A stretch of 28,977 bases of DNA from a virus. The position numbers and the translations under genes are program-made. The notes beneath the pieces were generated by a model. That model made no database searches. It saw only the letters and a program-made list of their open reading frames with translations, and had not been told where the DNA came from. The stretch is taken from IMG/VR virus record IMGVR_UViG_3300034106_003220, positions 1 through 28,977 of that record. One strand, written 5' to 3'. Numbering within the stretch: the first letter of the stretch is position 1; each line of letters starts with the position of its first letter. Of this stretch, positions 5,209-28,977 are shown piece after piece.

Positions 5209-5432
5209 TGAAAACCGTTCCCCTCACGTGCGCTCATTGCGGCTTCCGATCCAGGAAGCATGAATGTGAGCGAACCAGGCGGATCCCATCTGATGTTGGC
5301 CAGGTCAGGATGCACAGTTGCGCACGGTGCCATCGGGTCTGGGAGACGTTCCAGGCCGATCCCGTAAACCTTCCGCCGGGTCGCGTCTCCTGGACGCGGT
5401 CGGGCGTGATCGTGAGTCCTGGTGATGACTGA
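5208..5432 (+). CDS. Small zinc-ribbon-like protein
   Basis: The 74-residue product begins at GTG 5208, which shares the G of the upstream TAG; this coupled start is preferred to upstream starts that would overlap the previous gene. It has two CxxC knuckles, CAHC at residues 7-10 and CARC at about 36-39, with an aromatic HRVWETF segment after the second. That is the layout of a treble-clef or zinc-ribbon protein that binds one zinc ion. Such small phage proteins often bind nucleic acid or the host transcription machinery, but no specific family was recognised. Confidence 0.65.
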   Translation: MKTVPLTCAHCGFRSRKHECERTRRIPSDVGQVRMHSCARCHRVWETFQADPVNLPPGRVSWTRSGVIVSPGDD

Positions 5433-5667
5433 ACCCCGCCGCTTGCTCACCAAGGAAGAGGCGGCCGATGCCTTGGGCGTCAGCGTCAGCCACATCAATC
5501 GCTTGATCGCCGAAGCTGACGCCAACCGTCGCAGCCGCTGGCGGTGGGGCCGTGAGCTGATCAACCTCGCCCCCGTCAACGCCCAGCGCCGGATGGTGCG
5601 GGTGAACGTGGGGGCTATCGTCCCCGGAGCCATACAGAATCAACCCATTGCCACCACCGCGCCATGA
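5425..5667 (+). CDS. Excisionase-like helix-turn-helix protein
   Basis: The 80-residue protein starts at ATG 5425, overlapping the zinc-ribbon gene by 8 bases. Residues about 6-35 (LLTKEEAADALGVSVSHINR) match the MerR/AlpA-type winged helix-turn-helix of phage excisionases: 'T.EEAA..LGVS...I.RLI'. A later basic segment and a short strand (QRRMVRVNVGAIV) could form the wing. Excisionases bend DNA at att sites and push the integrase toward excision; the integrase lies 270 bases away on the opposite strand. It could instead be a transcription regulator of the same fold. The DNA-binding fold is firm, the excisionase role moderate. Confidence 0.72.
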   Translation: MTEPRRLLTKEEAADALGVSVSHINRLIAEADANRRSRWRWGRELINLAPVNAQRRMVRVNVGAIVPGAIQNQPIATTAP

Positions 5668-5936: not shown

Positions 5937-6938
5937 TTACTCCCCCATCAACGCCCTCTCCGCCGCCTCCGCCACCGCATGCGGCTGGATGTGCGCCCGG
6001 TAGGTGCGGGAGTGCTGAGTCGCTGAATGCCCCATCAGCCTGGCAGCGGTGTAGATGTCCAACCTGCTACCACCCTCCCGCCACAGCCTGCCGGCAAACG
6101 CATGCCGGAGCGCATAGGGTCGCCACGGGAGGCCTAGCCGGCGCAGCTCCTTGCTCAGCCACTTCGCCACCGCGTCGACCCGATCGTGCGCCGCTCCCTG
6201 GAGGGTTGGCCGCAGCCGCCGATCATGCAGCCGGAACCGATCCACCCACTCGCGAGGCAGCGGGATCACGGTGCGAAAGCCCGTCTTCGTGGCGTCTTGG
6301 ACCTGGCAGTAATCCCGTTCGATCAGCACCGCCCCCTCGATCTCGTGGGGGCGCAAGCCATAGGTGGCCATCATGCCGAAGTACCAGCCGGCTGGCCCCG
6401 CGCTCTCAACCCAGGCCACGATCTGGTCATCGGTTGGAACTGGCACTAGCTCGGCCTGTGAATAGGTTGGAACTGGCATTTCCGGAAACGGCACAGCAGC
6501 CAACCGCGAAAGATGCCGTAGCAGATAGAACAGCTCCTTGTAGCTGCAGCTATTGCGGCTGTAACGCTCAAGTGCTGCGGCAATGCTTTCCGTTGTGCAT
6601 TCACTATCTGGCGGGATCCGTCGAAGTCGCCCCATGTAGTTGATCTCCCACGTGGTCTCACTGGTCCGCCCCAGCACCACCCGAGCTCGGTAGAGCTTGG
6701 CGATTGCCTCCCGCCAGGTCAACCCCTCGGATTGATCGCTCCAGTAGGCCCAGCTGAACGAACCCTCGCGCAGCTGCCGCTCCAGGGTCTGCAGCTGCTT
6801 GGCTGCCGCCCTGCGGTTGACCGGCGTGTCGTCCATCCGCAAGGCGATCCGTGCCTGCGCCAATCCCGGCCGTCCATCACGCCTGGGCACCCTGGCCAGC
6901 AGGTAGAGCCGGCCCCGGTAGATGTTGAGCGATGCCAT
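5937..6938 (-). CDS. int: Tyrosine recombinase / phage integrase
   Basis: The 333-residue protein (MASLNIYRGR) carries out site-specific strand exchange between attP and attB. The catalytic domain shows R196 in ATYGLRPHEI, a likely lysine near K219, R278-H279 in YALRHAFA, H304 in LMGHS and nucleophile Y313 in RTYRAHI. The usual first histidine of HxxR is Tyr275, a tolerated variant in the family. Residues about 70-150 form the core-binding domain, and the first 60 probably recognise arm-type sites. Its stop abuts the convergent early operon with no gap, so the two messages may interfere. Repeats about 60 to 105 bases before its start are candidate binding sites. Confidence 0.95.
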   Translation of the reverse strand: MASLNIYRGRLYLLARVPRRDGRPGLAQARIALRMDDTPVNRRAAAKQLQTLERQLREGSFSWAYWSDQSEGLTWREAIAKLYRARVVLGRTSETTWEINYMGRLRRIPPDSECTTESIAAALERYSRNSCSYKELFYLLRHLSRLAAVPFPEMPVPTYSQAELVPVPTDDQIVAWVESAGPAGWYFGMMATYGLRPHEIEGAVLIERDYCQVQDATKTGFRTVIPLPREWVDRFRLHDRRLRPTLQGAAHDRVDAVAKWLSKELRRLGLPWRPYALRHAFAGRLWREGGSRLDIYTAARLMGHSATQHSRTYRAHIQPHAVAEAAERALMGE

Positions 6939-7244: not shown

Positions 7245-7430
7245 ATGGCCGATCTCCCTGTTACCGACGTGACCACCCGCCAGGACGGGGGAGTGGCGTG
7301 GCGAATCTGCTCCGGCGGGGTCTGCGTGGTGGAGTCCACGATCCCACGAGCTCAGGCCTGCTTTGAGGCCCTGTGCCGCTCCCGCGGTATCGAGCCCCCG
7401 CCGTGGCCTCAGGCTGGCGGCGCCTCCTGA
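7245..7430 (+). CDS. Hypothetical small protein
   Basis: From ATG 7245 the product has 61 residues, MADLPVTDVTTRQ, with strand-like VAWRICSGGVCVVES and a helical IPRAQACFEALCRSRG before a Pro-rich tail. It is the only + strand gene between int and the late region and converges on the endolysin gene, overlapping its last 22 bases. The frame is open further upstream, but the added residues look like non-coding sequence. No family was recognised. Four cysteines could hint at a metal site. Confidence 0.45.
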   Translation: MADLPVTDVTTRQDGGVAWRICSGGVCVVESTIPRAQACFEALCRSRGIEPPPWPQAGGAS

Positions 7431-8584
7431 TAGACGCTGACCCAGATCCGCCCGAGCAGCAGCAACGGCAGCACGCGATCGCGAATGTCCTCGTTGTGCA
7501 TCCGGATGCAGCCCAGGGTCGGGTGCAGCTCTTGCCGCGGCGCCCAGGCCCCGGGAAAGCCGCAAGCCGTGCCGCCGCCATGGATCATGATCCCATCGCG
7601 CCCGTTGCGGCTTCCGGGGCCCTCCTGGCCCTCCTGGCCCATCAAGTCGAGCGAATACCAGCCGTAGGACTGCCGCTCCTCGCTGAACCGCTCTGAGGGG
7701 TCATCGTCGTAATCGCGGTGGACCTTGCCGACGAGGTAGAGGCCGGGTGGTGTGTCGCTACCGGTGGTGTTCCACTCCGATTCTCCGCCCTGCCCACGGC
7801 ACAGGCATGGCACCTGCCAAACCTTGACGCCATCGTGGGTGTAAGCCGTGATGGTCTGGTTCACGTCGTTGGCGATCAGGTGGTGATCGCCTGGCTTCAG
7901 ATCTGGCCGCTTGCCGGGTCCGACCATGCGTCCCGCCACCGCAGGAGCTGACGCCTGTCCAGCGAACAATGCCCCCTCGGCCCGCCGCCGCCGCCGAAGG
8001 CCGGCTTCCACTGAGCTGCCAGGGTTGACGTAGAGCATCAGGGTCTTGGGTACAGCTGGCCAATCAGCGGCCCGCACCACCGAGGTCAGGGTGTTAAATC
8101 CTTCGCTGCCGAACCACGCCGCACCGCAGTTGTAGCTGAAGCTAACAAGCGCAGCGCGTTGATTCTGGGTCATCCGGCCCCATGTCGGGATCCGCTTGGC
8201 CTGCACCTGCCAGTCACCCGTAAGCCTGGTGATCAGCAGCGAATCAGCTTGAGCCTGGGTGATTCGATCGCCCTGTTTCACCCGTTGACCGTTGGAGTAG
8301 GTGGTGGTGCCCCACCCAATCGTCCACGGTTCTCCACCACTGGCGGGATCGGGGTAGGCCGCCAGCCTGCACCCCTCGAACTCCTGGACGATCTTGAGGC
8401 ATTGAGCCAGCCAACCACCTTGATCAGCTACCGGCGCCTCGGTAGCCGGCGGGTTTGTGCCGTTGAAGGTGACCCAGAACTCATCCCGTTGCTGTGATGT
8501 CAGCAGCTGATCAACGGCGCGAAACGCGGCGAGCTGACGGGGTTGGTTGGTGAATTGAGCTGCTGCTGAAGCAAGATCCGGCAT
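7409..8584 (-). CDS. Endolysin: GH24 lysozyme fused to an L,D-transpeptidase-like (YkuD) domain
   Basis: From ATG 8584 the product has 391 residues. The frame is open to 8776, but that part lies over the holin-like gene. Residues about 60-205 are a T4-type GH24 muramidase: E70 in VQEFEGCRL, D79 in AYPDP and T88 in WTIGWGT fit the E-D-T triad, followed by SYNCGAAWFGS. After a linker, residues about 233-385 match a YkuD domain: IMIHGGG (H335), then PTLGCIRM with the nucleophile C359 and R361. The usual Ser-His before Gly-Cys is Thr-Leu. The lysozyme should cut peptidoglycan glycans at lysis; the second domain could rework or trim the peptide stems. No signal peptide is evident, so a holin would be needed. 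It is last in the lysis cassette. Confidence 0.9.
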   Translation of the reverse strand: MPDLASAAAQFTNQPRQLAAFRAVDQLLTSQQRDEFWVTFNGTNPPATEAPVADQGGWLAQCLKIVQEFEGCRLAAYPDPASGGEPWTIGWGTTTYSNGQRVKQGDRITQAQADSLLITRLTGDWQVQAKRIPTWGRMTQNQRAALVSFSYNCGAAWFGSEGFNTLTSVVRAADWPAVPKTLMLYVNPGSSVEAGLRRRRRAEGALFAGQASAPAVAGRMVGPGKRPDLKPGDHHLIANDVNQTITAYTHDGVKVWQVPCLCRGQGGESEWNTTGSDTPPGLYLVGKVHRDYDDDPSERFSEERQSYGWYSLDLMGQEGQEGPGSRNGRDGIMIHGGGTACGFPGAWAPRQELHPTLGCIRMHNEDIRDRVLPLLLLGRIWVSVYQEAPPA

Positions 8585-8627
8585 GACGGGGAGCACCGTT
8601 GCGGCAGGTTTCCGGCAGCGGACCGGC

Positions 8628-8831
8628 TCAGGGCTCGGCCCCAGGCCCACCAGGGGGGCGGGCGAGCAGGGTCCCGAGGCTGGCAGAAGCTGCCAGGGCG
8701 CCCATTGAAGCTTGCCGCCATTGATCAGTGCATTCTGCCCCGCGTCCGCCGCAAAACAGGGGAGCGCCGAACCCACCTAGCGCGGAGATGACTGCGCAAC
8801 CCACTAAGGCCCTGACGATGGTGTTGCTCAT
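8628..8831 (-). CDS. Putative holin-like membrane protein
   Basis: The 67-residue protein starts at ATG 8831, overlapping the upstream stop as ATGA. It has two modestly hydrophobic segments, about residues 5-27 (IVRALVGCAVISALGG) and about 43-57 (MGALAASASLGTLLA), separated by a short polar loop with two cysteines. Size, two-span topology and place just before the endolysin fit a small holin that forms the membrane lesion. No holin family was recognised by sequence; the second span is short, so this is a contextual call. Confidence 0.5.
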   Translation of the reverse strand: MSNTIVRALVGCAVISALGGFGAPLFCGGRGAECTDQWRQASMGALAASASLGTLLARPPGGPGAEP

Positions 8832-9340: not shown

Positions 9341-10519
9341 TCATGCGCTGACTGCCGCCTGGATTTGAAACCCGGTGGTGTCGACCGTGGCAACATTGGC
9401 CAGCCTACCGGATGCAAACTGACCCAGGGCTGTTACAACGTTGGCCGACGTCAGGACAGCAGTGCCAACGGTATTGTCAACTGCGACTCCTAGGGCGACA
9501 CTGCCCGCAGCAGGAACAGCCATTGTTCCCGTGATCTCTAGGTTGGGTCCGTAGACGGTCCCGCTGCGCGTATTCGCAGCGGCCGGATAGTTGCCGCTGG
9601 GCAGCGCATCCGCTGGGTATAACGATCTAACCGTCGCTCCCGTAGACGTCCAGACCTGATAATACGTCGCAGGCTGAGCGGGCGTAAATCGCCAGCTCAG
9701 GGCCACTACCGGATTTACGTTATTCGATGAAATCAGGAACGGTCCTGATAGCTGGGTATTCTGGCCAATCACGCCAGCATCAACCGCTGGCCGGAATGTA
9801 GACGCCTGCACTATTCCATTGATCCTGACAATTCCAATTGTGCTGTTGTTGACAATGGCTGCGCCAGAGGAGCTGCCGGTTGACCCGGCTGTGATGTTCC
9901 CCGTTGTGATCCATGTTCCCGCAAATGCGGCATTGGCCACCAGCCCGTAAGAAGTAGCACCGCCGCTCGTACTTCCGGTTATGTTGCCGGTGTGGTTTAT
10001 CACCGCCCCAGCTCCCGCCGAAAGGGACACTCCAGATATGTTAAATCCAGAAGCCGCAGAGATCGACCCTGTTATGTTCAGGGTGCCAACAAAGCTGTTG
10101 GCAATGGTCAGGGAAGCAAAGCTTGCCGCTGTGTAGTTGCCAACCAGATTTATGGTTCCATTCCCGGTTATGTTTATCGCCGTAGCCCCAGAGGCTGGGG
10201 CTACGGAATTGGTTGCCGTTAAAGTAGCAGTCTGGCCTACCGTTAGGCTAGTGGTTACGCAACTTGCCGTAGTAACGCCTTGAATGATTCCGCTTGCGTT
10301 GGTGCATGTGAGGTTAGCTCCGTTCGTTAAAACGAAGCTGCCGCCAGCGCTGATGCTGGTTCCCGCAGCATTGCTGATCGCCTGAACTGTCCTGGTATCG
10401 CTGACAGGGATGGTAAACCCATTGGAGAAGGCGACATCCCCGGATCCAGGGACGTTCCCGCCAACCCACGTAGATCCAAGGCCAAAATCCCCGGCCTGAG
10501 TAGCTCTGATGTCAGCCAT
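9341..10519 (-). CDS. Beta-rich tail fibre / spike-like protein
   Basis: From ATG 10519 (MADIRATQAGDFG) the product has 392 residues. The start overlaps the upstream gene by 8 bases. Residues about 10-50 (STWVGGNVPGSGDVAFSNG) open like many phage surface proteins. Residues about 60-230 hold loosely repeated short strands (TGNGTINLVG, VGTLNITGSI, TWITTGNITAG), rich in Gly, Ser, Thr, Asn and Ala, as expected of a parallel beta-helix. The C-terminal third changes character and could be a receptor-binding or trimerisation part. It lies between the collagen-like fibre and the lysis genes. The receptor is unknown. Confidence 0.65.
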   Translation of the reverse strand: MADIRATQAGDFGLGSTWVGGNVPGSGDVAFSNGFTIPVSDTRTVQAISNAAGTSISAGGSFVLTNGANLTCTNASGIIQGVTTASCVTTSLTVGQTATLTATNSVAPASGATAINITGNGTINLVGNYTAASFASLTIANSFVGTLNITGSISAASGFNISGVSLSAGAGAVINHTGNITGSTSGGATSYGLVANAAFAGTWITTGNITAGSTGSSSGAAIVNNSTIGIVRINGIVQASTFRPAVDAGVIGQNTQLSGPFLISSNNVNPVVALSWRFTPAQPATYYQVWTSTGATVRSLYPADALPSGNYPAAANTRSGTVYGPNLEITGTMAVPAAGSVALGVAVDNTVGTAVLTSANVVTALGQFASGRLANVATVDTTGFQIQAAVSA

Positions 10520-10846: not shown

Positions 10847-12376
10847 TCAGTAGGCGTGGGTCGTGCGGCCTGTCCAGGTGACAGCCGTGATAGTGCTGCT
10901 GCCGGTCTGGACCCCGGCAGCACTGAACTGGGTCCTGGTGATTGACCACACGGCCGCAGCCTCGCTGGAACCAGCCGGGGCCTTGCCGACATAGACCGTG
11001 TTCGCGGTAGACGTGGAGTCGATGCGCACGGCTGTGGAGCTGCCACCGCCAGTACCCGAGGCGCCGGTGTCACCTCGGGGGATTGTGAAATTGAAAACGG
11101 CGGCAGAGCTGGTGCCGCTGTTGGTCACGCTTGCCAGCGATCCAGCTGCTCCAGTGGTGACCGTGCCGATTTCGACGGTGGCTGCGGCTCCAGTCGCCCC
11201 GGTGGCGCCGGTGGCCCCGGTGGTGCCCGCCGCCCCGGTGGCCCCGGTCGGGCCCTGCGGGCCCTGGGCGCCGGCAGTGCCGACCAGGGACGCCAGCCAC
11301 TGCGCCTCAGTGCCGGAGAACCCATTGGCCACAGCCACCTGGTAGGCGCTGCTGCCGGCAGCGCCGGCCGGCCCTGTTGCCCCAACTGGTCCGGCCGGAC
11401 CCTGTGGGCCGGCGGGGCCCTGTGGCCCTGTTGCCCCGGTGTCGCCATTCAAGCCCTGAGGCCCTTGGGGCCCAGTAGCGCCTGTTGCTCCGGTTGGCCC
11501 CGCAGGGCCTGCCGGACCAGTGGGTCCCTGGGCGCCGACCAGGGACGCCAGCCATTGCGTGCGTGTGCCGGTAAACCCCTGAGCAACAGCTACCTCATAG
11601 GCGTCGCTGCCATTCGTTCCGGCGGGGCCAGCAGGGCCAGTTGCTCCTGTGTCGCCCTTGGCCCCAGCTGGTCCTGTCGCTCCAGTTTGGCCAGCAGGGC
11701 CTTGAGGACCAGTGGTCCCGGTCGGGCCAGCAGGGCCTTGCGGGCCCTGGATTGGCCCCAGGTTCACCCACGCAGAACCGCTCCAGACGTGGACATCGCC
11801 TGTGCCTGTGACCTTGTAGGCATCACCGATTGCAGCGCCCTGGATCGTGCTCAGAGCCGCAACCGTTGCGACGGTGCCACGGATCACGAATCCGGTGCCG
11901 TCTGCTCCAGCAGGGCCTGTGGCGCCGGCCGGCCCCTGAGCACCAGCAGGGCCTTGAGCGCCAGCAGGGCCTTGAGCGCCAGCAGGGCCAGCAGGGCCGG
12001 CAGGGCCCTGGGGACCAGTCGCTCCAGTGTCGCCCTTCGCGCCCGCTGTCCCTGCTGCTCCAGCAGGGCCCGCCGCCCCGGTGGCCCCGGTCGGGCCCTG
12101 CGGGCCCTGTGGGCCGGCGGGGCCCTGGGCCCCGGCAGCGCCGATGGTGGTGTCGGTGATCGTCAGGTTGGCGCCGAGCGCCAGATGCCGCAGGCGTCCG
12201 GCTGAGTGGTCCCAGAACACCAACCGATCAGCACCCGCCCCGGGGTCATCGGCTGTCAGCTGCTGCCCCGTCAGCCCCAGCACGTCGGCCACAGTGGCGC
12301 CCAGGCTTACCGAAACACCACCCCCGCCGGTCCCCGGAGGGCCAGGAATGCCAGGGATCAGAACTTCGACGATCAC
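10847..12376 (-). CDS. Collagen-like tail fibre protein
   Basis: The 509-residue protein starts at GTG 12376, overlapping the upstream stop as GTGA. Residues about 80-430 contain long Gly-X-Y runs ([14 protein letters not shown] and similar) that should form trimeric collagen triple helices. They are broken by two copies of a globular insert, [21 protein letters not shown] and [21 protein letters not shown], a repeat common in phage fibres. Another insert near 160-205 contains [18 protein letters not shown]. The last 80 residues are non-collagenous and may be the tip. The coding DNA is repetitive and prone to length changes. Its role is host adsorption. Confidence 0.9.
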
Positions 12377-21487: not shown

Positions 21488-24400
21488 TCACCTCAGCCGT
21501 TGAATCTGCTGCATCACCTGGCTTGCGGTGGGGCCTGTCCGTTGCTGCACGTGGATGCTCCAGTCCCGCCGGGCCAGGGCGCCGACTTCCTGCCGAAGCT
21601 TTCCAACCTCGAGGGCCAGCTCAGCAACGCCGGCCGGCGCCGCGGCACCTGTGGCGATCGTGGCGCCTGTGGCTTGGATCCGTGCGCTGATCCCGGCCGG
21701 GATCACAGTTCCACTGGAGGGTGCCCGCCAGAGGCTGTTGGCCGGGGCGTCGATGGGCATCAACCGCCCGGCTGCAAGCAGCATCTCCTGACCGAGCTCG
21801 TTGACGCGATAGGTTTCGCCGGCCTCCACGGGGCCCCCAGTCCATCGGGAACCAGGGAGGTTCGCTGCTTGCTGCAGGTAGCCATAGAAGTCCCGGGCAG
21901 AGCTGGCGGCGCTGCTCATGCTGCCGCTGACCGATTGAAACTTGCCTTCGAGGTTGATCCCCTTGATGTCGTTCGCGTAGCCGCCAGCCTGCGCCAGGTA
22001 CTCGGCGAAGCCCTGGGCGCCCTGAAGGAGCGCCGGGGCCTTGTCGCCGGTCTGGGTGAAGGCCTGCGCCAGTGCTGCGGCCGGGCTTGCGGCATCCGAG
22101 GCCTTCCGCGCTGTGTCGTCGAATCCGACCTTGGACTGATCGAGGAGGGCGTTCATCTCCGCCACGGCGGTGTTCACCTCCGCCTGGCTGCGCCCAACCG
22201 CCAAGGTGCCTTGGCTGTTCTGGCCGATGGCCAGGCCGGCATCGGCGGCGATCCGCCGGTAGCGATCCTGCTCATCAGCCGTGAGCTTGGCGTAGGTGGC
22301 CACGCCGCTGAGCCCGCTGGCCATGCCAGAGATGGCCTCCAGCGTGCCATTCGCGGCGATCTTGAACCCCTTCGCCGCGGCTTCGGCCTGCAGGTTGTTG
22401 CGTGCGGTTTCGGCCGTGAGCTGGCTGATGGCCGCTTCAATCGGCTGGGTGCTGGCCGTCAGGGCCACCTGCTCCCGCGCGATGGTGAGCGCCTGGGCCT
22501 GTTTGTCGACCACATCCTGCAGGCTGGCCCGCTTGGCCTGATCGGTTTCCTTGGCCAGCTCGGCCTCCGCCTTCAGTAGATCGAGCTGTGCTGTGTTCAC
22601 CGCCTTCTGGCCCTCCAGTCGGGCCTTGGCCTGGTTGATCTCCAGGATCCGCTGCTCTAGGGACTGCTGGAGCAGCAGGTTCTGATAGCGGGCTGATAGC
22701 GCAGCACGATCCAACCGATCAACCTCATCGCGCTTGGCCTTCAGAATGTCTTCCCCTGCGCCGATCTCCTGGAGCTTCGAGAGCTCGAACTGCAACCTGG
22801 CCCGCACCACGCCGTAGCGCGACTGCTCCACGTCACTTAGGCCCTTGGCCAGCCCCACCAGGGATTGACTGATGGCGATGCGGTTCTGAAGGCGGCTGCT
22901 CAGCAGCTCCTCCGCCTGGATCGTTTGCCGGATCGGCCCCAGGCGATCAACTGCCGCCGCGGTTGCCGCCCTGGTCTCAGCGGTGAGCGCCTTCAGGGCT
23001 GCTGCGGCCTTGCGGGAGCCCCGCTCCTCATCGTCCGCGGCTTTGGCGAGGATCTTGAGCTGACTCGCCAGCCTGTCATCACCGGAGCGATCGGCTTCCA
23101 CTGCGCGACCGCGCAGGGTTGAGGCCTGCGCCTTAGCAATGTCGGCGATCTTCTGCAGTTGATCGATGTATTCCTTGGCCTGGGTTTTCTGCTGATCAGT
23201 GATGAACCGCGAACCCCGCAGCGACGAATAGAAGGCAAGCGCAGACTGCTGAACCTTGGTGAATCCGCCCTGCATCTTCTCAAACTCTTGCGAAGTGCGC
23301 AGCATGGTGAGCTCTTCGCGGCTGTTGCGGATCCACGTCAAGATCAGTGGCCCGGTATCCCTGGCAGCCTTACCCTGATCGCTGATGGCTGCGGCTGCCT
23401 TCTTGGTGGACTTCTCAACCTGCCCGACAATCTCATCTAGTGCTTTCTGTGATGCCGCAAAGTCGTTAGTCGCATCACCGGCGCCACTGAGTAGATACTG
23501 AATGCCCGCTATCGCTCCCGCGATCACGGCAAACCTTAAAACTACAACGGCCATGGAGGCTGCAAGCTTACCAAAGCCGACCGCGTACCCACCGATCGCG
23601 GACAACATGCCTTCTGTTTGTACGGCCTTGCTAAAGATAATCCACTCAATTTTAGCGGCAACGATTGCCTTAGTAAAAACGCCGGTGAATATCCTGGACA
23701 TCTCAAGTATCTCTCTACCGGCTGTTTGGATCATGTCATATGTCAACGCCCGTTTGAATATCGCGTATGCTGCCGTAGCGGCAACAGTGGCGGTGGTGAA
23801 TAGGCCCAGGGAGATGGCGGTGTACTTGATCGGATCCGGTAGCCCCGCCACGGCGCCCACGGCGGCATTGGCCAGGTTCAGCAGCGGCAACAGGGCTGTA
23901 GCCCCGACCTTGCCGACTGAGTTTCCGAGGCTGTCCAGGGTGCCGCCCAGCTGCTTGGTGACCATCTCGAAGCCCTGCATGGCATCGCGGGCTGTGTCGG
24001 TCGCCCCCTTGGTGTTCGCCATGGTGGCGCTGAGGGTCTTGATCTCTTCAACCGTCAGCCCCAGCAGCGAAAGCCACTTGGCCCCATCGTCCTCCCCGCC
24101 GAATAGGTTGGCGGCCATGCGGATCTTGGTCGCCGGATCCAACTGCCCAAACGCTGCCTTGAGCTTCAGCAGCGTTTCTTGCATCGGCTTGAGCGTGCCG
24201 TCGACGTTGTAAATGTCGAGGTTCAGCGCCTTCATCGTCCTGGCTGCTGCAGCCGCCTGACCAGTGAGATCCCCCATACCCTTGCCGGCCTGGGGGGCAG
24301 CGGACGCCAGCTTTGACAGGCCATTGCGCAGGGTCACGCCAGCCTCTGCCGCGGGGATGCCGGCGTTGGCCAACAGGCCCACGGCTACCCCGAGCTCTTC

Positions 24401-25369
24401 AATCGAGACCCCGAGGATCTTGGCGACGGGGCCCGCGTACTTGAATGCCATGCCCATCTCGCTGGCGCTGGTCGCCGAAGCGTTGGCCCCCTGCACCAGG
24501 GCATCCACAACCCGGGTCGCGTCGCCGGCCTGAAGCCCGAAGATCTTGATTGATGCCGCCGTCACCTCAGCCATGCGGGAGTAGGCGGTTCCGGTGGCCT
24601 CCGCCCCCCGCACGATCGCCGCGAGCGCCTGGGTGGCCTGGGTGACGGTCATGCCGCCGCGGACTAGCTCTGTCGTCAGCTGGGCGACTTCCTGCTGGGT
24701 GCCGGCCGCCTCGATGCCGACCTTGTCGATGGCCTGCGCGAGCTTGTCGTAACCGCCTGACTCACCGCCGGCAGCAGCGGCTTTCCTGATCTCGGTGTCA
24801 AGGGCCGCGTAGCCGCCGACGAACTGCTGCAGCTTGGCGAAGGCAGCACCGAGGGCGCCCATCACGCTGTTGGTGAGGCTGAACGCGATGCCCTGGATCA
24901 CGCCATCGAGCAGGCGGAACTGATCAGCCGATTCGCCGGCCTTCTGCAGCTCTCGTTCCGTGTCGCGGACGGCGGCCTGCAGCTCCCTGAATCGCTGGCT
25001 GCCGATAGCGACCCGCTCCAGCTCGCCGCGGAGATCGCCCAGGCGGGCATTCAGCGCAACGATGCTGGAGGGATCAGCCTGCAGGGTGACCTTCTGGCGC
25101 TTGAGTTCGTTGATCCGCCGTCCGAGATCCTCGATGTCGCGCTGGGCTTTCTTGTACTCGCTGGAATCGACCGGCAGCTTGGCCTGAACCGCCTTCAGTG
25201 CTCGGATCTGGCTTGCCAGGACACCGATGTTCTTCTCTGCGTCAGTGATGCCGGCCCCCAACCCCCTCCCGATCGCCTCGCCGGCCCGCTGCGCCTCCCC
25301 TGGCAGACTGCGGAAACCCTTGAGAACTTCGCTGAAATCTGCGCCTGCTGTTACAACGAAGTCGCTCAT
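21488..25369 (-). CDS. Tail tape measure protein (TP901-like)
   Basis: The 1293-residue protein begins MSDFVVTAGADFSEVL, overlapping the previous gene as ATGA. It sets the tail length and is ejected with DNA. Residues about 45-145 are coiled coil. Residues about 215-480 match the TP901-type core (TELVRGGMTVTQATQALAAI, GVSIEELGVAVGLLANAGI, AEAGVTLRNGLSKL). Two hydrophobic segments follow at about 515-625 (ISLGLFTTATVAATAAYAIF; VVVLRFAVIAGAIAGIQYLL). The rest is long helical coiled coil. At about 0.15 nm per residue, typical of the family, the tail would be near 190 nm. The part near 23500-23780 is clearly more AT-rich, suggesting a swapped membrane section. Confidence 0.95.
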   Translation of the reverse strand: MSDFVVTAGADFSEVLKGFRSLPGEAQRAGEAIGRGLGAGITDAEKNIGVLASQIRALKAVQAKLPVDSSEYKKAQRDIEDLGRRINELKRQKVTLQADPSSIVALNARLGDLRGELERVAIGSQRFRELQAAVRDTERELQKAGESADQFRLLDGVIQGIAFSLTNSVMGALGAAFAKLQQFVGGYAALDTEIRKAAAAGGESGGYDKLAQAIDKVGIEAAGTQQEVAQLTTELVRGGMTVTQATQALAAIVRGAEATGTAYSRMAEVTAASIKIFGLQAGDATRVVDALVQGANASATSASEMGMAFKYAGPVAKILGVSIEELGVAVGLLANAGIPAAEAGVTLRNGLSKLASAAPQAGKGMGDLTGQAAAAARTMKALNLDIYNVDGTLKPMQETLLKLKAAFGQLDPATKIRMAANLFGGEDDGAKWLSLLGLTVEEIKTLSATMANTKGATDTARDAMQGFEMVTKQLGGTLDSLGNSVGKVGATALLPLLNLANAAVGAVAGLPDPIKYTAISLGLFTTATVAATAAYAIFKRALTYDMIQTAGREILEMSRIFTGVFTKAIVAAKIEWIIFSKAVQTEGMLSAIGGYAVGFGKLAASMAVVVLRFAVIAGAIAGIQYLLSGAGDATNDFAASQKALDEIVGQVEKSTKKAAAAISDQGKAARDTGPLILTWIRNSREELTMLRTSQEFEKMQGGFTKVQQSALAFYSSLRGSRFITDQQKTQAKEYIDQLQKIADIAKAQASTLRGRAVEADRSGDDRLASQLKILAKAADDEERGSRKAAAALKALTAETRAATAAAVDRLGPIRQTIQAEELLSSRLQNRIAISQSLVGLAKGLSDVEQSRYGVVRARLQFELSKLQEIGAGEDILKAKRDEVDRLDRAALSARYQNLLLQQSLEQRILEINQAKARLEGQKAVNTAQLDLLKAEAELAKETDQAKRASLQDVVDKQAQALTIAREQVALTASTQPIEAAISQLTAETARNNLQAEAAAKGFKIAANGTLEAISGMASGLSGVATYAKLTADEQDRYRRIAADAGLAIGQNSQGTLAVGRSQAEVNTAVAEMNALLDQSKVGFDDTARKASDAASPAAALAQAFTQTGDKAPALLQGAQGFAEYLAQAGGYANDIKGINLEGKFQSVSGSMSSAASSARDFYGYLQQAANLPGSRWTGGPVEAGETYRVNELGQEMLLAAGRLMPIDAPANSLWRAPSSGTVIPAGISARIQATGATIATGAAAPAGVAELALEVGKLRQEVGALARRDWSIHVQQRTGPTASQVMQQIQRLR

Positions 25370-25800
25370 TCAATCCCCTCCAGCACGACAGCGGGATTTG
25401 TCCAGCTGATCACCACCTGCTCAAGCACCCCCAGCCCCTCCCCTGGTGGGTCGGCCTGAAGCCCCATCGCGGTGGCGCCGGGTAGCAGGGCGATCACGCG
25501 CTGAGCCACGGTCTGCAGTTCGCCCAGGGCATCCCAGGCGATCACGTAGATCCGCCAGGTTGGGTTCAGCATCGTGTCCCCGCCCAGGGTGAGCTGTGGC
25601 GCCAGGCCCGGCATCCGGGTGATGGTGATCTCGATGCCGCCGGCCACGGTGCCAGGCGGGAGGTTCTCGTTGGCCGCGAGCACCGAGATCGCCGGCAGGC
25701 TGGACCCGCCAGGAGAGAGGTAGGTGCCAAGCTCGGCGCTGATCACCGGATCGGCGGCCAGTAGGTCGTAGATCTCCTGTGAACTGGTGGGCGTGGTCAT
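25366..25800 (-). CDS. Tail terminator / completion-like protein
   Basis: From ATG 25800 the product has 144 residues: MTTPTSSQEIYDLLAADP. The pattern is a helix, a strand LPAISVLAANENLP, then GIEITITRMPG and TWRIYVIAWDALGELQTVAQ with a helix QRVIALLPG, then strands to the end. This alpha/beta layout and size fit tail-terminator proteins, which cap the tail tube. It lies between tail tube and tape measure genes. An upstream TTG (25818) would add six residues. Confidence 0.6.
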   Translation of the reverse strand: MTTPTSSQEIYDLLAADPVISAELGTYLSPGGSSLPAISVLAANENLPPGTVAGGIEITITRMPGLAPQLTLGGDTMLNPTWRIYVIAWDALGELQTVAQRVIALLPGATAMGLQADPPGEGLGVLEQVVISWTNPAVVLEGIE

Positions 25801-25841
25801 GCTGGAGCTTTCCGGCAACCTGCCTCAACTGCTCACCGCTC

Positions 25842-26087
25842 ATGGGGTCCCGTCAGCTGCTGCCGCTTCACTGGCAGTTCCGGTATCGGCACGTTGAGGC
25901 GATGATCAACGCGGCGGGTCCCGGCGATCTGGAAAGCCTGCGACAGCTGGCGCTGCGGGTGCTGGAGATGGCGGAAGTCAACCAGGCTCAAGCTTTGCTG
26001 ATGGCCCGGCAGCAGCTCCCAAGGCAAAACGCCCCGGCATCCGAAGACGCCGAGGCGGTGAGTCGCACGTTGTGCGGCAATGATTAG
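25842..26087 (+). CDS. Reverse-oriented small helical protein, likely moron
   Basis: This 81-residue frame (ATG 25842 to TAG 26085-26087) runs opposite to the surrounding tail operon and fills the 283-base gap between the tail tube stop and the terminator gene's start, overlapping the former by 4 bases. It reads MGSRQLLPLHWQFRYRHV, then a natural helix DLESLRQLALRVLEMAEVNQ and a polar tail. The amino acid pattern is coding-like. No Shine-Dalgarno or promoter is obvious. It is probably an extra gene expressed on its own, perhaps in the prophage state. No family was recognised. Confidence 0.55.
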   Translation: MGSRQLLPLHWQFRYRHVEAMINAAGPGDLESLRQLALRVLEMAEVNQAQALLMARQQLPRQNAPASEDAEAVSRTLCGND

Positions 26088-26917
26088 CTGGTGAAGTCCA
26101 GCTCGTAGGGCCCGTAGACCTTGATCCCGCTGGAGAACTTCACCACCGAACCCACGGCGGGGTTCTCCTGGAAGTTGGTGAAGCGGCCATAGCCGTAGGT
26201 GGCCTCATCGAAGCCGCGCGGGCCGACGCGGGCCCACTTGATCATCAGGCCTTCGCTGACGCTGTCCTTGCTGGCGATGCGGAACAGGTGATAGGCGGCA
26301 TCGCGGTGATCCAGGTTGGCCTCAAGCGCCCACGACAGGCTCTTGCCCGTTGCGATGCTGATATCAAAGCCCTGCGCCTCATCGTCGTAGTCGCGCACCG
26401 ATTCCTCGGTTTCGGACTCGTTCGGCGCGGCATTGGTGAGGCCCAGGAACCGCACCGGTGCATCGGTGCCGTCCAGCGCCAGGAAGGAGCTCACCAGCTT
26501 GCCTTTGCTCACCGTGGCCTCGGCCTGGTTTGTTGCCGTGACGGCGAAGCTCAGCGTGAACGGTGCCGACGCGGTGACAGCTGTCACCGTGAAGTTGCCG
26601 TTGAGCTTCGTGAAGGGTGCCGGCATTTGGGCGACGCTCACCGATGCGCCAGCGGCGATCCCATGGGCGGCGCCAAAGGTCAGGGTGCCGACGTTGGAGG
26701 CGATAGCGGCCTTGGTGGGGGTTCTTGCGGTGCCGGTTGCGATCTTGAGCGTGGATCCAGTGCCGGTCTTAATCACCGTGGCGTCGTTGCTCAGCAACGT
26801 GGCGATGTCCATGAAATCGGACAGCTCACCGTTGAGAGTGCCGAAATCAATCGCCGTGGGTTTGATGATCTGGATGTAGAACTTGTAGCCGAATCCCCTG
26901 GTGTACTGCTTGGCCAT
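26084..26917 (-). CDS. Major tail tube protein with inserted beta domain
   Basis: The 277-residue protein starts MAKQYTRGFGYKFYIQII. The start and end (ALDGTDAPVRFLGLTNAAPNES, EESVRDYDDEAQGFDISIATG, KSLSWALEANLDHRDAAYHL) fit tail tube proteins with a strand-rich fold. Residues about 70-140 form a separate Ig-like or surface insert (IASNVGTLTFGAAHGIAAGASV, FTVTAVTASAPFTLSF). It sits between tail chaperones and the tail terminator, as usual. The insert may decorate the tail outside. Confidence 0.78.
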   Translation of the reverse strand: MAKQYTRGFGYKFYIQIIKPTAIDFGTLNGELSDFMDIATLLSNDATVIKTGTGSTLKIATGTARTPTKAAIASNVGTLTFGAAHGIAAGASVSVAQMPAPFTKLNGNFTVTAVTASAPFTLSFAVTATNQAEATVSKGKLVSSFLALDGTDAPVRFLGLTNAAPNESETEESVRDYDDEAQGFDISIATGKSLSWALEANLDHRDAAYHLFRIASKDSVSEGLMIKWARVGPRGFDEATYGYGRFTNFQENPAVGSVVKFSSGIKVYGPYELDFTS

Positions 26918-27019: not shown

Positions 27020-27349
27020 GTGGCTGGGTGCTACCCAAAAGGCGTTTGCCACTGCCCCCAGAGCCGCAGCCGCCCGTTTCAGGCGCGGGTGTGGTTTCAG
27101 GGGCGGTATTGGAGCCTGGGCTATTTCCAGACGATCACAGAGGCGGAGCTGGAGGCGGCTCGGGTTCGTGCGGAGCGGGATGAGTGGAAAGCGATGCGGC
27201 TTCCGCCGCCCACACTGCTGCGGCTTCGGCAGCGGCAGGGACTGCCAGCCACGCCGCAGGCTCTGAATCCCCAGGCCAGCGAAACGCCCGCACCTGCCCC
27301 GCCGCCTCGTGTTCAGCGACCAGGAACCCCTGCCAGCCTTGCGGCGTAG
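27020..27349 (+). CDS. Small AP2-like domain protein in reverse orientation
   Basis: The 109-residue frame begins at GTG 27020, just after an in-frame stop, so it cannot extend further. Residues about 6-55 read YPKGVCHCPQSRSRPF followed by QARVWFQGRYWSLGYFQTIT and EAELEAARVRAERDEW. The 'W/Q ARV..G....LGYF.T..EAE.A' layout matches an AP2 DNA-binding domain, as found in many phage homing-endonuclease-like proteins. No HNH nuclease motif follows; the C-terminal half is Pro-rich, antisense to the chaperone gene, and probably degenerate. It looks like a remnant or small moron inside the tail operon. Confidence 0.5.
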   Translation: MAGCYPKGVCHCPQSRSRPFQARVWFQGRYWSLGYFQTITEAELEAARVRAERDEWKAMRLPPPTLLRLRQRQGLPATPQALNPQASETPAPAPPPRVQRPGTPASLAA

Positions 27350-28372
27350 CGCGAGGCGCCAGCAACACGGCATCGTCGGCGATCAAGGCCAGCTGCCGCG
27401 GCGGCGGCTGATCCCGACCGGCCCGCTCCAGCGGCTCATAGGCCACCAGGGCGAACGACGGCAGCAGATCGGCCTGAATCAGGGCCAGCATTGCGGCGCC
27501 AGCTTCCGCCGGGGGCCGCTCACCCTCCTGCGGCTGCCGGAACAGGCAGTAGTCGGCAAGCGGCGGGATGGTGGTCCCTTCGCGGGCGTGCATGGCCTCG
27601 AACCGCCGCGCCAGGGCAGCGATGGGGAGCTCAGCCCACTCCAGCTGTTGGGCTAGCCACGCTTCACCTTCCTCGATCGCGCGGTTGATGTAGTCGATCC
27701 CGAGCTCACCGAATCGTTCGGGGCTGAACTCGAGAGCATTGGGCCAGAGTCGCCGGCATCGCCAGAAGAGGCCGTCCCAGTCGGTGGGTTCAGCCCGCCA
27801 GCTCCCGGCCCGAGCTTTCCCAGGGTTTCGACCATCCCATCGACCATCTCCTCAGGCGTCTGCTCTGGCTGGTTGGCGGTGCGTTCATCCATGGCGAACG
27901 CCAGCACGGCGGTTTGCACGGGTTCCGGCAACCCGTCGGTGTCGTCGTCGGTCCAGGCCTCGCAACCCTCCAGGCGGGAGGTGATCAGGGCGGTGATCGT
28001 GCGTTGGCGCTGCAGCGCGTAGGCGTCCTGCAGCTTGCAGCTGAGATCAGCGATCAGGGCGGCGTGCTGGATCAGGGCCCGCTGCTCGATCGGCTCCAGC
28101 GGGATCGGGATCCCCATGCGGGTGCTGATGATGCGGATCGCGATCCGCTGCGCCTGGGTTTCCTCGATGCCTTCACCCAGCAGGGCATCAGCGAGGCGCG
28201 AGGATTCGCGGTACATCACCGCCTGGTACTCGTGCTCACGGATGTGCGCCAGCTCCCGGCCCTTGAGGCAGCCGAGCACGGGGAACACCAGGGTGCAGTC
28301 CTGGCCATCGACCGTGGCGGAGACGCTGCGGGTCCTGATCGTCGGGGCGACGACCCACGGGAGCTGGGGCAT
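27135..28372 (-). CDS. Tail assembly chaperone, -1 frameshift fusion (G-T-like)
   Basis: Two frames join here: 186 residues in the first frame, then a -1 slip at 27815-27821 and 226 further residues, giving about 412. The second part runs without a stop from 27815 to 27135 and contains natural sequence (DWDGLFWRCRRLWPNALEF, GIDYINRAIEEGEAWL, LPSFALVAYEPLERAGRD) upstream of the first ATG (27593). In lambda-like phages the fused product binds the tape measure while the short form is made in excess. The last 20 residues overlap the AP2-like gene and may have been altered by it. Confidence 0.85.
27653..28372 (-). CDS. Tail assembly chaperone, unshifted product (G-like)
   Basis: The 239-residue zero-frame product (MPQLPWVVAPTIRTRSV) is the main form, made when ribosomes do not slip. 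Residues about 20-60 (CTLVFPVLGCLKGREL) are strand-rich; residues about 70-165 are helical (ALIADLSCKLQDAYALQRQR). After the slip codons (185-186) the remaining 53 residues are Ser/Gly/Pro/Thr-rich and end in KVKRG, typical of a low-constraint tail past a frameshift. It acts with the fused form to coat the tape measure during tail assembly. The gene starts 35 bases after the upstream stop. Confidence 0.82.
   Translation of the reverse strand: MPQLPWVVAPTIRTRSVSATVDGQDCTLVFPVLGCLKGRELAHIREHEYQAVMYRESSRLADALLGEGIEETQAQRIAIRIISTRMGIPIPLEPIEQRALIQHAALIADLSCKLQDAYALQRQRTITALITSRLEGCEAWTDDDTDGLPEPVQTAVLAFAMDERTANQPEQTPEEMVDGMVETLGKLGPGAGGLNPPTGTASSGDAGDSGPMLSSSAPNDSVSSGSTTSTARSRKVKRG
27815..27821 (-). 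promoter_or_regulatory. -1 programmed ribosomal frameshift site GGGAAAG
   Basis: On the - strand the heptamer is read in frame as G GGA AAG, the X XXY YYZ type, at codons 185-186. It is identical to the slippery site of phage lambda's G/T genes. The -1 frame is open from 27851 to 27135. A possible 5-bp stem (AGCTC/GAGCT) begins at the heptamer's last bases; the stimulatory structure, if any, is unclear. Confidence 0.85.
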
Positions 28373-28407: not shown

Positions 28408-28962
28408 TTAGCGGCGGCGGCGGCGGGAAGATCGCGTCCGCCTACCCCCGATGCGCGGATTTGCGCCATAGAAATTGCCTGCCCTATCAAGTGTTAAAAT
28501 TGACTTCTGCATTTTATTCAGCCGACTCCGCTCTGGCGAATTTTTCTTTTTTGGCCCCGAAGTGTCAATGGTTTTTAGTAAGTCTATCATTTCGTTGCGT
28601 ACAGTCGATCGCTTTTGCCATGCTCTATCCATTCTTGCTTTTAGCCGTTGAGCTTGTTTGGAAAACTGGCTTGGCGCCGTTCTCAACGTGGTTAACTGTT
28701 TAACAGCGACCCTATCAATACCTCCCGTTAAAAGGTTGCCCTGTCTGTTGATGATCCTTTTCCTGGTTAATACTTGCCTTGATGAGACTCCCAACCTCTC
28801 TATAAGTCTTAGTGTTCTTTCTCTGTGCCTAGATCTTGCTCGTTTTTTAATTACCGCAAACGACGCTTTTGACTTGGTTGGTACTGGCGTGGTTGCCAAC
28901 GTGTTCTGTCGTGCCGCTTGGCCGCCTGACTTCTTCCTCCCAACCCTCACCGCACCCGCCAT
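28408..28962 (-). CDS. Basic hypothetical phage protein, AT-richer gene (5' end may be open)
   Basis: From ATG 28962 the product has 184 residues, MAGAVRVGRKKSGGQAAR, strongly basic throughout and ending in five arginines. The frame has no stop before the window edge (28977), so the true start could be upstream. Residues about 95-135 look helical (FSKQAQRLKARMDRAW). The gene is clearly less GC-rich (about 47% in 28501-28560). It lies ahead of the tail chaperones, where head-tail joining or tail completion genes are normal. High charge suggests nucleic-acid contact. No family was recognised. Confidence 0.6.
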   Translation of the reverse strand: MAGAVRVGRKKSGGQAARQNTLATTPVPTKSKASFAVIKKRARSRHRERTLRLIERLGVSSRQVLTRKRIINRQGNLLTGGIDRVAVKQLTTLRTAPSQFSKQAQRLKARMDRAWQKRSTVRNEMIDLLKTIDTSGPKKKNSPERSRLNKMQKSILTLDRAGNFYGANPRIGGRRTRSSRRRRR

Positions 28963-28977
28963 CTTCGGCAGCTTGGC

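Follow-up and report, generated by a model that had tools for sequence, protein, structure and literature searches.

The tail region of this phage sequence raises the question of whether two overlapping open reading frames on the minus strand are two genes or a single gene whose second half is reached by a backward slip of the ribosome. The window, meaning the whole stretch of DNA that was analysed, is the 28,977-base IMG/VR virus record IMGVR_UViG_3300034106_003220 (positions 1 to 28,977). An earlier note on this DNA had proposed a lambda-type -1 frameshift joining the two frames into one tail chaperone. The comparisons described below favour this reading, and with a probability of about 0.88 the pair represents tail assembly chaperone genes that are expressed via programmed -1 ribosomal frameshifting. 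The features of the pair, all on the minus strand, are as follows.

27653 to 28372 (-): zero-frame ORF, putative 'G-like' chaperone, ATG at 28372, 239 aa
27815 to 27821 (-): slippery heptamer GGGAAAG, G GGA AAG in the zero frame; in-phase site kept in relatives
27135 to 27815 (-): -1 frame extension, putative 'T-like' domain, 226 aa after the slip, match to phrog_34388
27653 to 27851 (-): stretch open in two frames, 199 nt overlap; -1 frame under selection 3' of the heptamer

The zero-frame codons at the heptamer read CTG GGA AAG, which places G GGA AAG in the phase that had been claimed for it, and the identity with lambda holds as well, GGGAAAG being found in equal phase at 10109 of NC_001416. 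From 27815 the -1 frame runs for 226 codons to a stop at 27135, and its openness, described previously as starting at the heptamer, in fact begins already at 27851. The earliest ATG, GTG or TTG of this frame in the ORF listing is at 27593, 74 codons 3' of the heptamer, so that a gene caller would lose 74 residues of T, as had been anticipated. Residues 1-186 of the G-like ORF are encoded before the slip, and the remainder is a Ser/Pro/Thr-rich tail that is predicted to be disordered. The predicted fusion would thus comprise 412 aa (186+226), compared to 239 aa for the zero-frame product.

The bare heptamer is not unusual in the window, where GGGAAAG occurs 4 times regardless of phase against 4.29 expected; the argument therefore depends on phase, frame and conservation. 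Within the overlap, an in-phase X XXY YYZ site was found in 30 of 31 representative loci, while codon shuffles gave an expectation of 3.2. Glycine is encoded by GGA in none of the 22 other Gly codons of the window's pair, but the heptamer does contain this codon. Compared with its closest relative (96% identity), the window has 11 nucleotide changes from the heptamer to the first ATG; 8 of them affect a third codon position in the -1 frame, and the changed codons are synonymous in 8/11 cases in the -1 frame and in 1/11 in the zero frame. Several pairs of freshwater relatives show a like tendency. Since changes favour its third positions and synonymous codons, the -1 frame is, judging from these substitutions, protein-coding ahead of any start codon. 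A Shine-Dalgarno-like sequence is also enriched 5' of the heptamer; the Glu-rich codons of this stretch may alone explain the enrichment.

Relatives were searched with the -1 protein and not with the heptamer, and because they were found through that protein the conservation of the heptamer among them is not circular. A tblastn search with the -1 protein led to the cultured phages PSS2 and S-CBS2, an alignment-based scan of IMG/VR yielded 62 loci, an S-CBS2 query added further loci and the alignment query also found one cyanobacterial metagenome-assembled genome (MAG). Altogether about 70 related loci keep the arrangement, five of them in cyanobacterial genomes and others in the cultured phages PSS2, S-CBS2, S-CRES1 and S-CRES3. 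Clustering of 35 sequences left 31 groups at 90% identity and 25 at 70%, and 5 of 386 host-phylum genomes drawn, the MAG included, contained a match. In 30 other loci G homologues with a conserved LPF/W.V.P N-terminus were present.

In every locus the upstream ORF is placed such that a -1 shift out of its frame enters the second frame, and in all loci except L049 and L050 an X XXY YYZ site lies in phase at the junction. In PSS2 and S-CBS2 the homology begins 5' of where the second gene has been annotated to start, reaching the 3' end of the first gene; reading the -1 frame backward, the junction with the first gene is the slip site. The junction heptamer is G GGA AAG in PSS2 and S-CRES3 and A AAA AAG TAA in S-CBS2 and S-CRES1. 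Many marine members have a zero-frame stop immediately 3' of the heptamer, and most freshwater members, the window included, carry GGGAAAG. In the four cyanobacterial genomes other than this MAG, five loci were found: one has G GGA AAC, one G GGA AAG and two G GGA AAA, whereas the fifth has a run of A in which C CCA AAA overlaps A AAA AAA. Each of these sites is in phase. The sole lineage that departs from the heptamer with both frames kept, the outcome singled out in the earlier note as damaging, is that of L049 and L050, which has the non-canonical G GAA AAG and whose sister L041 has GGGAAAG. As to a stop or a conserved start before 27593, none of the loci examined has the -1 frame closed at the junction, and the first ATG/GTG/TTG is not conserved, its position ranging between -150 and +330 nt relative to the start of the match. 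The conserved YWxLKRxFPGDPEF block of T stands 5' of any plausible start. What has been observed directly is how the sequence is arranged, that this arrangement is conserved and that selection acts on it. The two apparently separate genes of this cyanobacterial-type phage are almost certainly one.

In the proposed mechanism, most ribosomes would stay in the zero frame until its stop at 27653, producing the 239-aa G-like protein. In a minority, the P- and A-site tRNAs on GGA AAG would slip back one base to GGG AAA, and these ribosomes would resume at GCT (27815) and end at 27135, giving the 412-aa G-T fusion. Across the family, the two residues preceding the shift are GK or KK, and EK in one lineage. 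In lambda, the binding partner of G is the tape measure protein and that of T is the tube protein, with a ratio of ~30:1 (PMC5009743). By analogy, the window's proteins would attach to the tape measure protein through their G part, the T domain would bring in the major tail protein and the frequency of slipping would set the G:GT ratio. The slip, its frequency and these binding roles are what we infer from the comparison.

A downstream RNA structure could contribute to such a slip. In the window no structure downstream of the heptamer stands out (z -0.92), and RNAalifold found no consensus among nine marine sequences. Pairing between the stretch after the heptamer and the FFPGD codons is better with a sequence's own partner than with swapped partners (p ~0.005, relatedness not controlled), and in about half of the marine lineages this stem has an energy below -16 kcal/mol. 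For a stimulatory stem in marine members, these pairing data are suggestive only.

The pair shares a tail operon with the genes for the major tail and tape measure proteins, which follow it on the same strand.

26084 to 26917 (-): candidate major tail (tube) protein, phrog_38654 tail protein (E 8.7e-36); downstream of the pair
25366 to 25818 (-): 150-aa tail-operon protein, blastp matches to S-CRES3 gp82 (E 1e-17), S-CBS2 gp018 (1e-16) and PSS2 gp066 (1e-9)
21488 to 25369 (-): tail length tape measure protein, PHROGs 4704, 1533 and others; Pfam PhageMin_Tail (E 2.8e-35)

The major tail candidate is 42% identical over 127 aa (E 3e-33) to S-CRES3 gp83, annotated as 'major tail protein'. Homologous pairs in the same operon order as in the window are PSS2 gp064/gp065, S-CBS2 gp015/gp016, S-CRES3 gp79/gp80 and S-CRES1 gp72/gp73, each annotated as two genes of which the second is truncated. 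The gene order of the family is G, T, an antisense gene, then the 150-aa protein and the major tail protein in either order, and then the tape measure protein. The resemblance to lambda G/GT thus includes GGGAAAG in equal phase, a short protein with a -1 extended version, a second frame that has no conserved start of its own and a location in the tail operon near the tube and tape measure genes. The order in lambda is V (major tail), G, T, H (tape measure), whereas in the window, S-CBS2, S-CRES1/3 and the freshwater relatives the cyanophage pair stands ahead of the major tail gene. A place between the major tail and tape measure genes is usual for lambda-type chaperones but does not define them. 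The label 'lambda-type' consequently suits the slip site and the two-product layout, but not the position of the genes. The T domain of the window is also larger, with 226 aa compared to 144 for the lambda T ORF, and has a beta-rich C-terminal half. The lambda chaperones do not occur in virions.

The antisense gene after T varies among members. In S-CBS2 (L008 6578-7042), S-CRES1/3, PSS2 and most marine loci, T is directly followed by an HNH endonuclease gene of the opposite strand, which overlaps T's end or abuts it; a conserved HNH gene occupies this place in 21 of the compared loci (47-100% identity). Freshwater members instead carry a short ORF, likewise antisense, that includes an AP2-like stretch (FQARVWFQGRYWSLGYF..EAE); in the window it lies at 27020-27349 (+) and overlaps the T frame at its 3' end. 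This ORF gives weak matches to PHROG HNH-endonuclease profiles, in their C-terminal or middle part (E 3e-4), and its reading is kept in L012, L015, L017 and partly in L018. Another antisense frame (..AMINAAGPGDLESLRQLALRVLEMAEVNQAQALLMARQQL..), at ~25900-26087 (+) between the tube and 150-aa genes, is similar in L012 and L015 and possibly a small conserved gene; it had no PHROG match. On the other side of the pair, at 28408-28977 (-), the window contains a strongly basic ORF of at least 184 aa with a GC content of ~0.5 vs 0.67-0.72, and in L012 this place is taken by tandem basic ORFs starting MARTYKRD.RGRFASGGG. This stretch is possibly an insertion between the connector genes and G.

Profile searches gave most information for T. 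The T domain of the window matches phrog_34388, a family of 'unknown function', with E 1.4e-16, and the T domains matched in 31/31 cases. As the matches begin at T residues 44-50, aligned to profile positions 3-10, phrog_34388 was probably built from truncated proteins. The tail chaperone family Phage_tail_T (Pfam PF06223) was matched, below threshold, by the T domains of 9 of 31 family members (best E 6e-4), the individually viewed matches spanning T residues 42-98. When whole records were searched with PF06223, the sole match was the T gene in PSS2 (E 3e-5) and likewise in S-CRES3 (E 0.004). The curated cut-off of 25.9 bits was not reached, the best viewed score being 21.4 (PSS2) and single members scoring 17.6 and 17.1. 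The Pfam search returned no PF06223 match for the window's own T and no credible match for G, the NCBIfam search none for T, and the PHROGs search none for any G. PF06223 also matched nothing at E 0.001 in 292 host-phylum genomes, and the Pfam model therefore does not reach the T family in that phylum. With hhalign, comparisons to lambda G, to lambda T and to an alignment of eight lambda-like T proteins were weak and gave nothing firm, so that profile comparison provides no convincing sequence similarity of lambda G or T to the cyanophage family.

The AlphaFold model of G consists of a beta-hairpin followed by helices, with pLDDT >90 for most of residues 11-160 and under ~55 past residue 190, and its disordered tail begins near the slip point at 186. 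The model of T (pLDDT 87.6) has helices first and a beta-rich half after them. Against the PDB the G model gave no E below 0.8 and a best Z of 5.8, to unrelated helical proteins, and the T model had a Z no higher than 3.5 with solved structures, none convincing. In a BFVD structure search the best matches of both G and T were unnamed viral proteins; the near-consecutive accession pairs A0A346A5Z9/A0A346A600 and A0A510E8E6/A0A510E8J5 occurred in both the G and the T lists, with weak scores. The designation as a tail chaperone made in the earlier note is nevertheless very probably right, as the tail operon, the annotation in S-CRES1/3 and the weak Phage_tail_T similarity agree on it, while the fold matches did not support it.

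Three other explanations were weighed against a frameshifted tail chaperone. The frameshift could be real and the fusion be another morphogenesis or virion protein that is made in two lengths, rather than a chaperone of tube and tape measure proteins. Such a protein would be in keeping with the lack of a solved-structure match for either half, with the weak lambda profile comparisons and with a pair placed before the major tail gene and not after it. On the other hand, the similarity to Phage_tail_T, sub-threshold as it is, recurs and is unique in two genomes, and the relatives' annotation is that of a tail assembly protein. In addition, the gap between the major tail and tape measure genes of S-CRES3 is only ~75 nt, and for this reason no second chaperone pair fits there. 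A different virion protein is accordingly unlikely.

Doubts about the frameshift itself carry far less weight. The second frame would be a separate gene if its translation began at an internal or non-standard start codon or relied on termination-reinitiation, and a separate gene is how the annotators of PSS2, S-CBS2 and S-CRES1/3 called it. Yet in nearly all relatives the conserved N-terminal block of T is 5' of any ATG/GTG/TTG, the starts are not conserved, codon conservation in the -1 frame extends to the heptamer and an in-phase heptamer would be left unexplained, all of which makes independent translation very improbable. Slippage of RNA polymerase on a run of A or G, which would generate mRNAs of altered length in place of ribosomal slippage, might be imagined for those relatives that have an A run (A AAA AAG, longer in L095), but the GGGAAAG of the window and most freshwater members contains no long homopolymer, and a phase requirement for the heptamer is a prediction of tandem tRNA slippage. 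Hardly any credence can be given to a polymerase origin.

If the frameshifted chaperone is accepted, its interest is mainly one of annotation, as the principle is textbook knowledge since lambda. Annotation programs miss the slip, and for this reason the frameshifted protein is shortened and often unnamed in public phage genomes. In the public genomes of PSS2, S-CBS2, S-CRES1 and S-CRES3 the second half has been given a wrong start; in S-CRES1/3 it is annotated as 'tail assembly protein' and cut at an internal start. A likely function would be gained for phrog_34388, a PHROG family of unknown function, and the lambda-type frameshift would be extended to widespread cyanobacterial phages and to loci in cyanobacterial genomes, with the slip site kept despite strong divergence. 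A literature search found no report of a frameshift in these phages; the papers that first described the PSS2 and S-CBS2 genomes were outside its matches, and an earlier mention is possible. The chaperone family, the annotation error and the gene order seem to be undescribed so far. Perhaps, though this is doubtful at present, cyanobacterial phages have a tail chaperone class of their own, characterised by a pair before the tube gene, an enlarged T with a beta-rich C-terminal part, frequent A AAA AAG plus stop in marine lineages and a downstream stem-loop in about half of these. In that case the role in assembly or the control of frameshifting could differ from lambda's, and the deviant gene order and larger T domain merit structural study.

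Elsewhere in the window, a 455-aa ORF at 7409-8776 (-) appears, by eye only, to combine a muramidase with an L,D-transpeptidase-like domain (EGCRLAAYPDPASGGEPWTIGWG..; ..MIHGGGTACGFPGAWAPRQELHPTLGCIRMHNEDI), and downstream in the structural region, at 10847-12376 (-), lies a collagen-like Gly-X-Y repeat protein. An integrase-like ORF at 5937-6938 (-) adjoins a small helix-turn-helix-like ORF at 5422-5667 (+), both likewise identified by eye, which suggests that the phage may be temperate.
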